Below are positions 14,501 to 42,129 of a stretch of DNA of 55,294 bases, piece by piece. Position 1 is the stretch's first letter. Each line of letters starts with the position of its first letter. The notes under the pieces are model-generated. The model was not told where the DNA came from, searched no databases, and saw only the letters and a list, made by a program, of their open reading frames with translations. The stretch comes from Candidatus Gastranaerophilales bacterium (GTDB lineage: Bacteria > Cyanobacteriota > Vampirovibrionia > Gastranaerophilales > Gastranaerophilaceae): the NCBI GenBank assembly GCA_944324375.1, contig CALUWB010000003.1:1-55294 (forward strand), read 5' to 3'. The translations under genes and the position numbers were made by a program.

Positions 14501-14519
14501 TTTTATACTCCTTAATATA

Positions 14520-14613
14520 ATTAGCAAATATATGCTAATTATAGAATATTTTTACTAGAATTGTCAATATAAAATTAGCATATTTCTACTAATAATAGAA
14601 AATATAGTATAAT
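14520..14613. promoter_or_regulatory. two palindromic operators between divergent small genes
   Basis: ATTAGCAAATATATGCTAAT (14520-14539) and ATTAGCATATTTCTACTAAT (14574-14593) are 20-bp palindromes with the same ATTAGCA half-site. The first would cover the minus-strand gene's transcription start; the second lies just upstream of the -10 TATAAT (14608-14613) of the plus-strand HTH gene. They are likely binding sites of that HTH protein. Confidence 0.7.
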
Positions 14614-14832: not shown

Positions 14833-14940
14833 TTGGAAATATATTAAAATTATAGTAAGATGTTTTTAGGGTAGTACCTCATTACCTCCGTCTGCACACG
14901 CTTTTTACTAAGAAAACGGCAGAGAAAGGAGGTGAGAAAC
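14833..14940 (+). promoter_or_regulatory. cassette 1: promoter and Shine-Dalgarno-masking leader
   Basis: TTGGAA (14833-14838), 17 nt, TAAGAT (14856-14861). The RNA would start near the box TTTTAGGGTA (14864-14873). In the leader ACCTCC (14884-14889) plus TCTGC (14891-14895) can pair with GCAGA (14919-14923) plus GGAGGT (14928-14933), hiding the ribosome site of the peptide. The loop contains CACACG, shared with cassettes 2, 5 and 6. Confidence 0.7.
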
Positions 14941-15039
14941 ATGAAGTTAAGTTTTATACCACTTGTCAATTTTTTAATTGATAAGTATAAAACAAAAGCT
15001 CCAGTAGTTGAGATACTGGAACTTTTAATTAAAACATAA
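14941..15039 (+). CDS. cassette 1 peptide, 32 aa, putative type I toxin
   Basis: ATG with GGAGGTGA 7 nt upstream. The peptide starts MKLSFIPLVNFLID, has a basic middle (KYKTKAP) and an amphipathic end (EILELLIK). Its closest relative is the peptide of cassette 2 345 bp away: same length, the same MKL start, K-Y-K-x-K-A-P and E-L-L-E/L-E-L core. It is an amphipathic rather than an obvious membrane-spanning peptide. Function is inferred from the cassette layout only. Confidence 0.65.
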   Translation: MKLSFIPLVNFLIDKYKTKAPVVEILELLIKT

Positions 15040-15098
15040 CTTTTAGGGTACTAAGTCAAGCTCTAAGGAAGCTGTATTTCTTTAGGGCTTGCCCCTAT
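15040..15098 (-). ncRNA. cassette 1: predicted antisense RNA
   Basis: Minus-strand promoter TTGATT (15132-15127), 16 nt, TATAAT (15110-15105), starting near 15098. The RNA would run back through the 14-bp hairpin (15057-15070 with 15078-15091) and the second TTTTAGGGTA box (15041-15050). Its complement of that box can also pair with the identical 10-nt box in the sense leader. The 3' end is not determinable by eye. Confidence 0.55.
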
Positions 15099-15104
15099 GT
15101 TTTT
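15041..15104 (+). terminator. cassette 1: 3' box and strong hairpin terminator
   Basis: CAAGCTCTAAGGAA pairs over 14 bp (two G-U) with TTCTTTAGGGCTTG, enclosed by AGGG/CCCCT, and is followed by TTTTT at 15100-15104. Confidence 0.8.
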
Positions 15105-15177
15105 ATTATAATTCATTTCTGCAAGAAATCAATAGCAAGTATCAACTTTAGTATCAAAATAAATACACATATACCAA

Positions 15178-15285
15178 TTGTAAATATATTAAAAATATAG
15201 TAAGATATTTTTAGGGTAGTACCTTATTACCTCCGTCTGCACACGCTTTTTACTAAGGAAACGGCAGAGAAAGGAGGTGAGAAAC
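15178..15285 (+). promoter_or_regulatory. cassette 2: promoter and Shine-Dalgarno-masking leader
   Basis: TTGTAA (15178-15183), 17 nt, TAAGAT (15201-15206), then box TTTTAGGGTA (15209-15218). The leader is nearly identical to cassette 1, including ACCTCC/GGAGGT and TCTGC/GCAGA pairing and the CACACG loop. Confidence 0.7.
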
Positions 15286-15384
15286 ATGAAGTTAGCTTTG
15301 AATTTATTTCTTGATTTATTTGTTAAGAAATACAAGAAAAAAGCTCCAGAGCTGGAACTCTTGGAACTTTTTTTAAATAGCTAA
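15286..15384 (+). CDS. cassette 2 peptide, 32 aa, putative type I toxin
   Basis: ATG with GGAGGTGA 7 nt upstream. Starts MKLALNLFLDLF, then VKKYKKKAP and ELELLELFL. It is clearly a duplicate of the cassette 1 peptide, yet the flanking leader and terminator DNA are better conserved than the peptide, so the RNA parts appear to be under strong constraint. Confidence 0.65.
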   Translation: MKLALNLFLDLFVKKYKKKAPELELLELFLNS

Positions 15385-15442
15385 TTATAGGGTACTAAGT
15401 CAAGCTCTAAGGAAGTTGAGTTTCTTTAGGGCTTGCCCCTAT
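15385..15442 (-). ncRNA. cassette 2: predicted antisense RNA
   Basis: Promoter TTGATT (15476-15471), 16 nt, TATAAT (15454-15449). The predicted start is near 15442, and the RNA crosses the hairpin 15401-15435 and the second AGGGTA box (15389-15394). Confidence 0.55.
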
Positions 15443-15448
15443 GTTTTT
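15385..15448 (+). terminator. cassette 2: 3' box and hairpin terminator
   Basis: Same 14-bp stem as cassette 1 (15401-15414 with 15422-15435), followed by five T (15444-15448). Confidence 0.8.
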
Positions 15449-15544
15449 ATTATAATTCATTTCTACAAGAAATCAATAGGAACAATAATTCTAATTTTAT
15501 AAATATTAATATATTTACATTTATATCCCAATGTGAGATAATTA

Positions 15545-15620
15545 TTCAATACAAAAATAGAGTACAGGCTAAAGATTTTTGATTATTTTTTCGCTGAATT
15601 TTAAAAGAAAGGAGGTTGAA
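15545..15620 (+). promoter_or_regulatory. cassette 3: leader with a hairpin around the ribosome site
   Basis: Box AGAGTACAGGCTAAAG (15559-15574) takes the place of the AGGGTA box. TTTTTCGCTGA near 15588-15598 can pair with TCAGCGAAAAA inside the reading frame (about 15634-15644), enclosing the Shine-Dalgarno site GGAGG and the TTG start in the loop. The upstream -35/-10 is not clear. Confidence 0.5.
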
Positions 15621-15692
15621 TTGATAGTCAAAATCAGCGAAAAAGAACTACTACTTGTATTTGTAATAGTTCTTGCTCTCAAATCCCTTTAA
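15621..15692 (+). CDS. cassette 3 peptide, 23 aa, putative membrane toxin
   Basis: TTG start with AAAGGAGGTTGAA upstream. The peptide begins MIVKISEKELL and continues with a 10-residue Val/Leu/Ile/Phe run ending ALKSL, one short membrane helix with a basic end. It aligns with the cassette 4 peptide 26 kb away (I-S/T-E-K-x-L, hydrophobic core, short tail). The weak TTG start fits tight control of a toxic product. Confidence 0.6.
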   Translation: MIVKISEKELLLVFVIVLALKSL

Positions 15693-15694
15693 TT

Positions 15695-15732
15695 AGGGTA
15701 CGGGTTAGGGTGTTAGCGCCACCCTTGCCTGT
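15695..15732 (-). ncRNA. cassette 3: predicted antisense RNA
   Basis: Promoter TTGTAA (15766-15761), 16 nt, TAAAAT (15744-15739). The RNA would begin near 15732 and include the complement of the box AGGGTACGGGTTAGGG (15695-15710). That box differs from the leader box only by A/G and C/T changes, so most positions could still pair with the antisense RNA, several as G-U. Confidence 0.5.
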
Positions 15733-15766
15733 ATTCTTATTTTAACTTATTTTTTATTTTTTACAA

Positions 15767-15810
15767 GGGGTAAATGCAAGGGGGTAGGGGTAAATATGGG
15801 TAAATATGGG
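15767..15810 (+). repeat. five G-tracts separated by TAAATAT (possible G-quadruplex)
   Basis: GGGG, GGGGG, GGGG, GGG and GGG separated by 2-9 nt, mostly TAAATAT spacers. It lies between the cassette array and the promoter of def, and belongs with the GGGGTAAATA word seen elsewhere. A related AGGGGTAGGGATAAATT lies at about 15880-15897. The remainder to 16014 holds the def promoter (TATAAT at 15979-15984). Confidence 0.6.
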
Positions 15811-16014
15811 TTGTGTTGATTTTCTGTCTACTAGTTAAATAGAAGAGAGAAAATTGTTCTGCGAACCGTATAGAAATATTAGGGGTAGGGATAAATTTAA
15901 TTTAGTTTAGATTCTGATTACATGTTAGATATAAATAATTATCTTATAGGTTGAATTTAAGCTTTAAGTATAGTACCGTATAATAAGTAGAAAATAGTTA
16001 TGAGGGAAGTCTGA

Positions 16015-17972: not shown

Positions 17973-18044
17973 TATGAACATCGAAATCAAATTTAAAATG
18001 TATCCTACGACTCTTAGGGTACATTTTATTTTTTCTCTATTCAT
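17970..18044 (-). CDS. cassette 6 peptide, 24 aa, putative type I toxin
   Basis: ATG at 18044 with AAAGGGGGTGATGCA upstream. It starts MNREKIKCTLRVV and ends in a hydrophobic LNLISMFI. It resembles the cassette 5 peptide (M-R/N-R-E-x-I-K start, hydrophobic rest, same 24-aa length). The middle of its coding DNA is itself an inverted repeat (TGTACCCTA ... TAGGATACA), so the mRNA can fold inside the frame. This is the only cassette of the six in minus orientation. Confidence 0.6.
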   Translation of the reverse strand: MNREKIKCTLRVVGYILNLISMFI

Positions 18045-41560: not shown

Positions 41561-41632
41561 TTGGATTTCAGTATAACTGAAAAAGCGTTATGGCTTATCT
41601 TATTGATAATCATAACGCTTAGACTAAGATAG
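41561..41632 (+). CDS. cassette 4 peptide, 23 aa, putative membrane toxin
   Basis: TTG start, AAAGGGGGTGA upstream. Starts MDFSITEKALWLILL and ends with Ile-rich then LRLR: a membrane helix with a basic end. It aligns with the cassette 3 peptide. The coding DNA itself contains a perfect 10-bp inverted repeat, AAGCGTTATG / CATAACGCTT, so the mRNA can fold over most of the frame. Confidence 0.6.
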   Translation: MDFSITEKALWLILLIIITLRLR

Positions 41633-41885: not shown

Positions 41886-41960
41886 TTGAGAAGAGAAATA
41901 ATAAAAGCTGCCATAATTGCAGTTATAGCAGCTCTTAAAATTCTATTAAACTTCTTATAG
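41886..41960 (+). CDS. cassette 5 peptide, 24 aa, putative membrane-active toxin
   Basis: TTG start behind AAAGGGGGTGATTAAA. Starts MRREIIKAAIIAVIAAL and ends KILLNFL: a basic N-terminus and an Ala/Ile/Leu amphipathic helix. It resembles the cassette 6 peptide. The TAG stop is the first three bases of the downstream TAGGGTACTAAG box. Confidence 0.6.
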   Translation: MRREIIKAAIIAVIAALKILLNFL

Positions 41961-42010: not shown

Positions 42011-42082
42011 AAATATATTATAGTATATTTCTCACTTTTTTCAAGATAAAAACATTTTACTCGTTTGTTAACTTAATCGATA

Positions 42083-42109
42083 GATTGCTTCGCCCTGCTC
42101 GCAATGACG
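42083..42109. repeat. dispersed palindromic repeat (ATTGC...GCAAT type)
   Basis: GATTGCTTCGCCCTGCTCGC followed by AATGACG. ATTGC/GCAAT arms around a GC-richer middle. This word, in variants, is a common intergenic repeat in many bacterial genomes as far as I recall. It is followed by GGGGTAAATG (42111-42120). Confidence 0.6.
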
Positions 42110-42129
42110 AGGGGTAAATGTTATTGTAC

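Follow-up and report, generated by a model that had tools for sequence, protein, structure and literature searches.

The par/Fst system of the Enterococcus plasmid pAD1 (RNA I/RNA II), which belongs to the Fst/Ldr family, consists of an mRNA of ~230 nt encoding a peptide of ~33 aa and an antisense RNA from a convergent promoter; a leader stem-loop hides the Shine–Dalgarno (SD) sequence, the 5′ end is sequestered in a helix, and the two RNAs have one common bidirectional terminator and overlap outside the coding region (PMC7472228). In TxpA/RatA and BsrG/SR4 of Bacillus subtilis, the convergent antisense RNA overlaps the 3′ end of the toxin mRNA by ~75 and 120 nt, respectively, and SR4 tightens the masking of the bsrG SD from a distance (PMC4147584). 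The AapA/IsoA systems of Helicobacter pylori are multicopy and chromosomal, and their full-length mRNAs are silenced by a 5′–3′ long-distance interaction, with SD-masking hairpins located upstream (PMC6733600). Before a 2025 study of Microcystis, the known type I systems all came from three phyla, Proteobacteria, Firmicutes, and Tenericutes; that study used de novo prediction on a single genome to describe type I-like loci, including msoT1/msoA1, several of which have the antisense RNA over the coding sequence and 3′ UTR (PMC12390103). For the Ca. Gastranaerophilales, which NCBI places in Ca. Melainabacteria, the open-access literature searched contained no link between Gastranaerophilales or Melainabacteria and type I systems, although an earlier description elsewhere is possible; one paper on these lineages mentions a HigB/HigA module.

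The window analyzed here is a 55,294-nt stretch of a Ca. Gastranaerophilales genome (contig CALUWB010000003.1). Two units with one common anatomy, C1 (positions 14833–15132) and C2 (15178–15476), occur exactly where the original prediction placed them. They are direct repeats 344–345 bp apart, and their identity is 81% across a stretch of 209 nt and 79% across one of 151 nt; Tandem Repeats Finder reported no repeat. The description of the pair as near-identical holds for the leader and the 3′ module and was dropped at the peptide level, where only 13 of 32 residues are identical (DNA ~80%).

C1 begins with a weak putative sense promoter, TTGGAA-17-TAAGAT (14834–14862, forward strand). The corresponding element of C2 reads TTGTAA-17-TAAGAT, and both were below the threshold of an independent scan, so that, although the elements are present and −10 elements recur in the family, the sense promoter is the weakest part of the predicted layout. 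At the 5′ end, box 1 (AGGGTA) and the adjoining GTACC (14868–14878) are predicted to pair with the 3′ CCCTA and with GGTAC of box 2, respectively. The leader hairpin (14884–14933) pairs the anti-SD ACCTCC (14884–14889) with the SD GGAGGT (14928–14933), as the same elements do in the fold of C2, and exposes in its loop the hexamer ACTAAG (14907–14912), which hexamer matching and accessibility mark as the predicted target of the antisense RNA. A strong SD precedes the 32-aa ORF (14941–15039; MKLSFIPLVNFLIDKYKTKAPVVEILELLIKT), and just 3′ of its stop codon lie box 2 (AGGGTA) and a second ACTAAG (15045–15055), which form part of a stem-loop, AGGG...CCCTAT (15045–15098), recovered by folding and by the covariance model; this would be both the terminator side of the sense RNA and the 5′ hairpin of the antisense RNA. 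On the reverse strand, the independent scan found a TTGATT-16-TATAAT promoter at 15132–15105, from which an RNA extending from ~15098 to 14984 is predicted. It would end at a terminator within the ORF (14983–15027), composed of a hairpin (15027–14993) and a T-tract and found both by the terminator scan and in the antisense fold.

The same elements are present in C2: the leader (15213–15278) with box 1 at 15213–15218, the loop hexamer ACTAAG at 15252–15257, and the SD GGAGGT at 15273–15278; a 32-aa ORF (15286–15384; MKLALNLFLDLFVKKYKKKAPELELLELFLNS); box 2, the hexamer ACTAAG (15394–15399), and the 3′ stem-loop (15389–15441); and, on the reverse strand, a TTGATT-16-TATAAT promoter (15476–15449), a predicted RNA at ~15442–15330, and a terminator within the ORF (15329–15362; hairpin 15362–15339). 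The convergent promoters, hidden SD, 32-aa ORFs, second boxes, and 3′ hairpins had all been predicted; the antisense terminators with T-tracts inside both ORFs had not, and the region contains five terminator-like sites when 0.4 are expected. The boxes themselves are enriched: the window contains 12 copies of TAGGGTA where 4.4 are expected, a number attained by none of 100 shuffled sequences. Upstream of C1, a 28-nt inverted repeat (14516–14597; 82% complementary) lies between two divergent small ORFs; the ORF from ~14622 beside it looks like a small DNA-binding protein, and the repeat is possibly an operator adjoining the cassette array.

Six cassettes had been proposed for the window, and five were matched by our covariance model, these being all of the matches in this genome. 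In addition to C1 and C2, they are C4 (41488–41694, forward; 23-aa ORF with a TTG start at 41561–41632; repeated hexamer GTTAAG), C5 (41814–42022, forward; 24-aa ORF with a TTG start at 41886–41960; repeated hexamer ACTAAG), and C6 (17908–18112, reverse; 24-aa ORF at 18044–17970; repeated hexamer GCGAAG). The sixth, C3, proposed at 15490–15770, did not match the 3′-module model and has neither box 1 nor a masking leader; its sense promoter (15514–15542), TTG-start ORF (15621–15692), and reverse-strand antisense promoter (15766–15739) span 15514–15766, and it looks like a degenerate or divergent unit.

Like par/Fst, the cassettes have convergent promoters, a predicted mRNA and peptide of similar size, an SD-hiding leader stem-loop, and a 5′ end sequestered in a helix, these last two being predicted here, with co-variation (PMC7472228). 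In both, repeats shared by the two RNAs let an antisense RNA made from the 3′ side reach the leader; in the cassettes these are the hexamer and AGGG, and they co-vary. Unlike par/Fst, each cassette has its own antisense terminator within the ORF and a sense hairpin near the antisense start. No Pfam match to the Fst peptide was obtained at E-values up to 10, and the PXXXG(C) motif, which marks Fst-type peptides together with a charged C-terminal tail, is absent from the listed peptides. Therefore, by the features tested, a common bidirectional terminator and an Fst peptide, the cassettes fail as members of par/Fst. The overlap at the 3′ end resembles that of TxpA/RatA and BsrG/SR4, with the predicted antisense RNA here contained entirely in the 3′ portion of the sense RNA. 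Neither of those systems is known to us to have a leader repeat that corresponds to its antisense RNA. TxpA has 59 aa, compared with 21–32 aa for the peptides here (PMC4147584), and no significant match to the TxpA or BsrG toxins was found in Pfam, NCBIfam, PHROGs, or PADLOC. With AapA/IsoA, the cassettes share multicopy modules, SD-masking hairpins, and 5′–3′ closure (predicted in five of five folds, and co-varying). The antisense layout of AapA/IsoA differs from that of the cassettes, as do the phylum and the sequence, and the same four libraries contained no family match for an AapA-type peptide. The SD of AapA3 is trapped directly by the long-distance contact, whereas that of the cassettes is hidden by the local leader hairpin (PMC6733600). 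The Microcystis msoT1/msoA1 locus comes from the nearest studied phylum and has no evident relation to the cassettes in sequence or RNA architecture. The best explanation is a family that would work like par/Fst or BsrG/SR4 with an AapA-like 5′–3′ lock, and that combines elements documented for par/Fst, for BsrG/SR4 and TxpA/RatA, and for AapA.

A covariance-model search of related genomes had been suggested with the original prediction. Because the quality of the first leader alignments near the SD did not suffice for a leader model, the 70-nt 3′ module alone was modeled (model R1, alignment A7) and searched in whole genomes; the leader, ORF, and internal terminator of the matches are thus independent findings. 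In the host family (Gastranaerophilaceae), R1 matched 65 of the 146 genomes, which represent 24 of its 41 genera. The matches extended to 91 of 241 genomes in the order Gastranaerophilales, with one match outside the family, and to 60 of 292 genomes across the phylum, where all of the matches listed were in the host family. Up to seven cassettes occurred per genome. After the exclusion of 17 of 125 matches, which were reverse-strand hits of the palindromic model, ~100 homologous cassettes were parsed, and 100 of 108 distinct cassettes yielded an intact ORF of 18–32 aa ending at box 2; one of these ORFs (L132) is spurious and was omitted from most counts (hence 99). No ORF was obtained by the parsing rules in L100, L121–L123, L128, or L154, although the 3′ module was retained; L154 has ATA at the expected start codon, and L128 is cut by the end of the fetched sequence. 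The single match in another family of the order (G164; L189, 150–400) is a complete cassette with an apparent CTG start codon, possibly reflecting transfer, contamination, or decay. In agreement with the original statement that no such family was known, searches of Pfam, NCBIfam, PHROGs, and PADLOC gave no significant hit for the peptides, and no Rfam family reached the gathering threshold for the cassette RNA.

The predicted RNA contacts are supported across the family. The mean unpaired probability of the SD was 0.19, compared with 0.40 when the upstream sequence was shuffled. The hexamer located one base after the AGGG of box 2 recurs in the leader loop, ~30–37 nt 5′ of the start codon, and the antisense RNA carries its complement; the variants include ACTAAG, GTTAAG, ATGAAG, ACGAAG, GTGAAG, ACAAAG, GCAAAG, GCGAAG, GTTATG, GTTACG, and ACGCAG, and matched variants recur over several peptide sets. 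When G-U pairs were allowed, the leader hexamer formed six of six pairs with its own antisense RNA in 92 of 99 cassettes, compared with 31% (maximum 47%) in 2,000 permutations; because the cassettes are related by descent, the permutations exaggerate how many events were independent. Among 262 close pairs of cassettes with different hexamers, mismatches averaged 0.31 against the cassette's own leader and 1.55 against that of its partner, and the match was exact in 71% and 2% of cases, respectively. Transition mismatches between leader and antisense occurred 16 times in the direction that keeps a G-U pair and 5 times in the opposite direction, a bias that fits RNA pairing rather than a common protein site. 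Both hexamers are predicted to be accessible, with unpaired probabilities of 0.85 in the leader (average 0.48) and 0.81 in the antisense RNA (average 0.33). In the five folded cassettes of the window, two contacts were predicted, one joining the 5′ AGGG to the 3′ CCCT and the other joining box 2 to the bases that follow box 1; the latter co-varies in the family (5.37 of 6 pairs, compared with 4.94 and at most 5.12 in permutations), with variants such as AGTACC/GGTAC, AGCTCC/GGAGT, AGTTCC/GGAAC, and GCACC/GGTGC. The 3′ stem contained 247 double-changed cells, compared with 71 in shuffled alignments, a count that includes the 17 reverse-strand matches. We rejected the idea that this hairpin serves mainly the antisense RNA, as the sense form is the more stable in 98 of 99 cassettes (G-U pairs, 219 vs 64). 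We also rejected the hexamer as a private lock between paralogues (20 of 88 within-genome pairs identical, 15.1 expected); paralogues in one genome often carry the same hexamers, and cross-regulation in trans is therefore possible.

The type I toxin–antitoxin-like layout with a 3′-side antisense RNA is thus supported by ~100 homologues and by the promoters, terminators, and leader co-variation, and we consider it likely, judging from sequence, that each cassette is a module of this kind. The anatomy, its conservation and co-variation, and the coding and terminator constraints described below are features of the sequences themselves; we infer the two transcripts, their stabilities, the toxicity of the peptide, and the trigger of its release. 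A weak promoter would produce an mRNA of ~200–250 nt for a 21–32-aa peptide that is hydrophobic in most families and probably acts on membranes. This mRNA would be locked at birth, as the leader hairpin masks the SD and, once the mRNA is complete, the 3′ module is bound by its 5′ end (AGGGTA.GTACC). Past the 3′ end, a strong consensus promoter would direct an antisense RNA of ~110–130 nt, which would cross the 3′ stem-loop and end at the terminator within the peptide codons. Its exposed anti-hexamer (e.g., CUUAGU, followed by ACCCU) may pair with the leader-loop hexamer and box 1, and the antisense RNA may next pair with its perfect complement in box 2, the 3′ UTR, and the ORF, so that the mRNA would stay silent or go to RNase III. 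Once antisense transcription stopped, the longer-lived mRNA could unlock and the peptide be made.

The peptides fall into approximately six sets: A (KEKAPELELLELFL, 32 aa; C1 and C2), B (MTKEIIKTVITVIITVL...), C (DKIIMLLLA...), D (ITEKALWLILLIIIAL; C4 and probably C3), E (IIKALVILELLAKLILA), and F (REIIKKVLATLG...; C6). At 21–32 aa, the ORFs are within the 60-aa limit of type I toxins. The mean GRAVY is 1.56 (0.62 in family A), and 85% of the distinct peptides contain a segment of 15 aa that exceeds 1.6 on the Kyte–Doolittle scale; the family A peptides of C1 and C2 are amphipathic and not plainly transmembrane. The short, cationic nature of the peptides as a whole (mean net charge +1.7), together with the tandem copies and the gut habitat, would also suit peptides under antisense control that are secreted or displayed on the surface, resembling leaderless bacteriocins or serving as signals, and that act on neighbors and not on the producing cell. 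We regard this explanation as unlikely, because no export, immunity, or processing gene was recognized in the flanks of the def locus, and because a tight lock combined with an antisense RNA is the signature of self-endangering peptides.

Returning to the toxin–antitoxin-like reading, the antisense promoter is near consensus (TTGACA in 70 and [AT]ATAAT in 95 of 99 cassettes). Sense promoters across the family are weak and follow no regular pattern. An antisense hairpin with a T-tract in or across the ORF, with dG ≤ −10, was found in all 99 cassettes, compared with 24% of synonymous shuffles; at dG −13, the values were 94% and 11%. The antisense fold of the ORF had a mean z of −3.0 relative to synonymous shuffles. 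These results indicate selection on the ORF for the terminator in addition to that for the encoded peptide, and by inspection recurring lysine-rich motifs (IIK, EKA, and KEKAP) derive from the same bases that form the antisense T-tract. The formation of the terminator by ORF nucleotides and the encoding of the conserved IIK or EKA by T-tract-making sequence would fit a structured regulatory or decoy RNA in which the ORF arises incidentally from the palindrome of the antisense terminator. The strong SD, the frame intact in nearly all distinct cassettes, and the mostly closed other sense frame make this very improbable, as does the bias of substitutions toward synonymous and hydropathy-conserving changes. 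An absence of codon-level constraint had been named beforehand as a result that would refute the prediction, and constraint was found: in the orthologues of C1, C2, C4, and C5, all ORF differences are synonymous and the flanks vary, and when close relatives within the 24-aa set were compared in pairs, codon differences of a single base were synonymous in 46% of cases (26% expected), with a mean hydropathy change of 1.8 (3.2 expected). The pN/pS ratio is only moderately low (0.40–0.84), partly because the terminator holds synonymous sites.

We tentatively propose, with not quite an even chance of being right, that a single RNA chassis, passed on by descent, bears six or more peptide sets without evident mutual similarity, that the antitoxin terminator consists of toxin-coding nucleotides, that the RNA circuit and not the peptide is the conserved unit of a toxin–antitoxin superfamily, and that the hydrophobic peptides are partly dictated by the terminator palindrome. 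The family would be large and natively multicopy in an uncultured gut lineage, and one covariance model detects it where current libraries lack it. The overlap of code and terminator and the co-varying leader hexamer make the RNA–RNA recognition testable by compensatory mutation.

C1–C3 lie upstream of def (16015), and within the genus this locus holds no cassette in two genomes (G002 and G003), one in two (G005 and G007), two in one (G001), two plus C3 in the window, and three in G004, indicating that units come and go whole. The 0 to 3 copies at def and up to seven per genome, with the C2–C3 interval missing as a block in two species, might suggest mainly a mobile or repetitive element spreading as a ~345-bp unit, with the peptide and antisense RNA secondary. 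This is not exclusive of the toxin–antitoxin-like reading, but as the principal explanation it has very little probability: no transposase or target-site signature was seen, viral contigs (three patterns) and phage and plasmid records contained no cassette match as searched, and the codons, terminator, and RNA pairing are under selection. That the cassettes are a cis-acting leader or attenuator of def, as the upstream position of C1–C3 might suggest, is extremely improbable, since each unit is ended by its own hairpin, the relatives G002 and G003 have def without cassettes, which lie elsewhere, and C6 is directed away from def.

Several repeats accompany the cassettes. The window has a block at 15487–15933 containing C3 and G-rich repeats (AAGGGGTAAATGCAAGGGGGTAGGGG), which G001, G005, and G007 lack in the interval that separates their cassettes from def. 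A CGCAATGACG-type palindromic repeat, which looks like a dispersed repeat, is found beside cassettes in two different genomes, at 42080–42115 of the window and at the start of L189. In L036, two copies of a ~90-bp element (AAAACAACGGG..CTCCCCTCTCCTCGAAC..CGGCAGAGTCC), at 1250–1345 and 1810–1900, lie on either side of a cassette.
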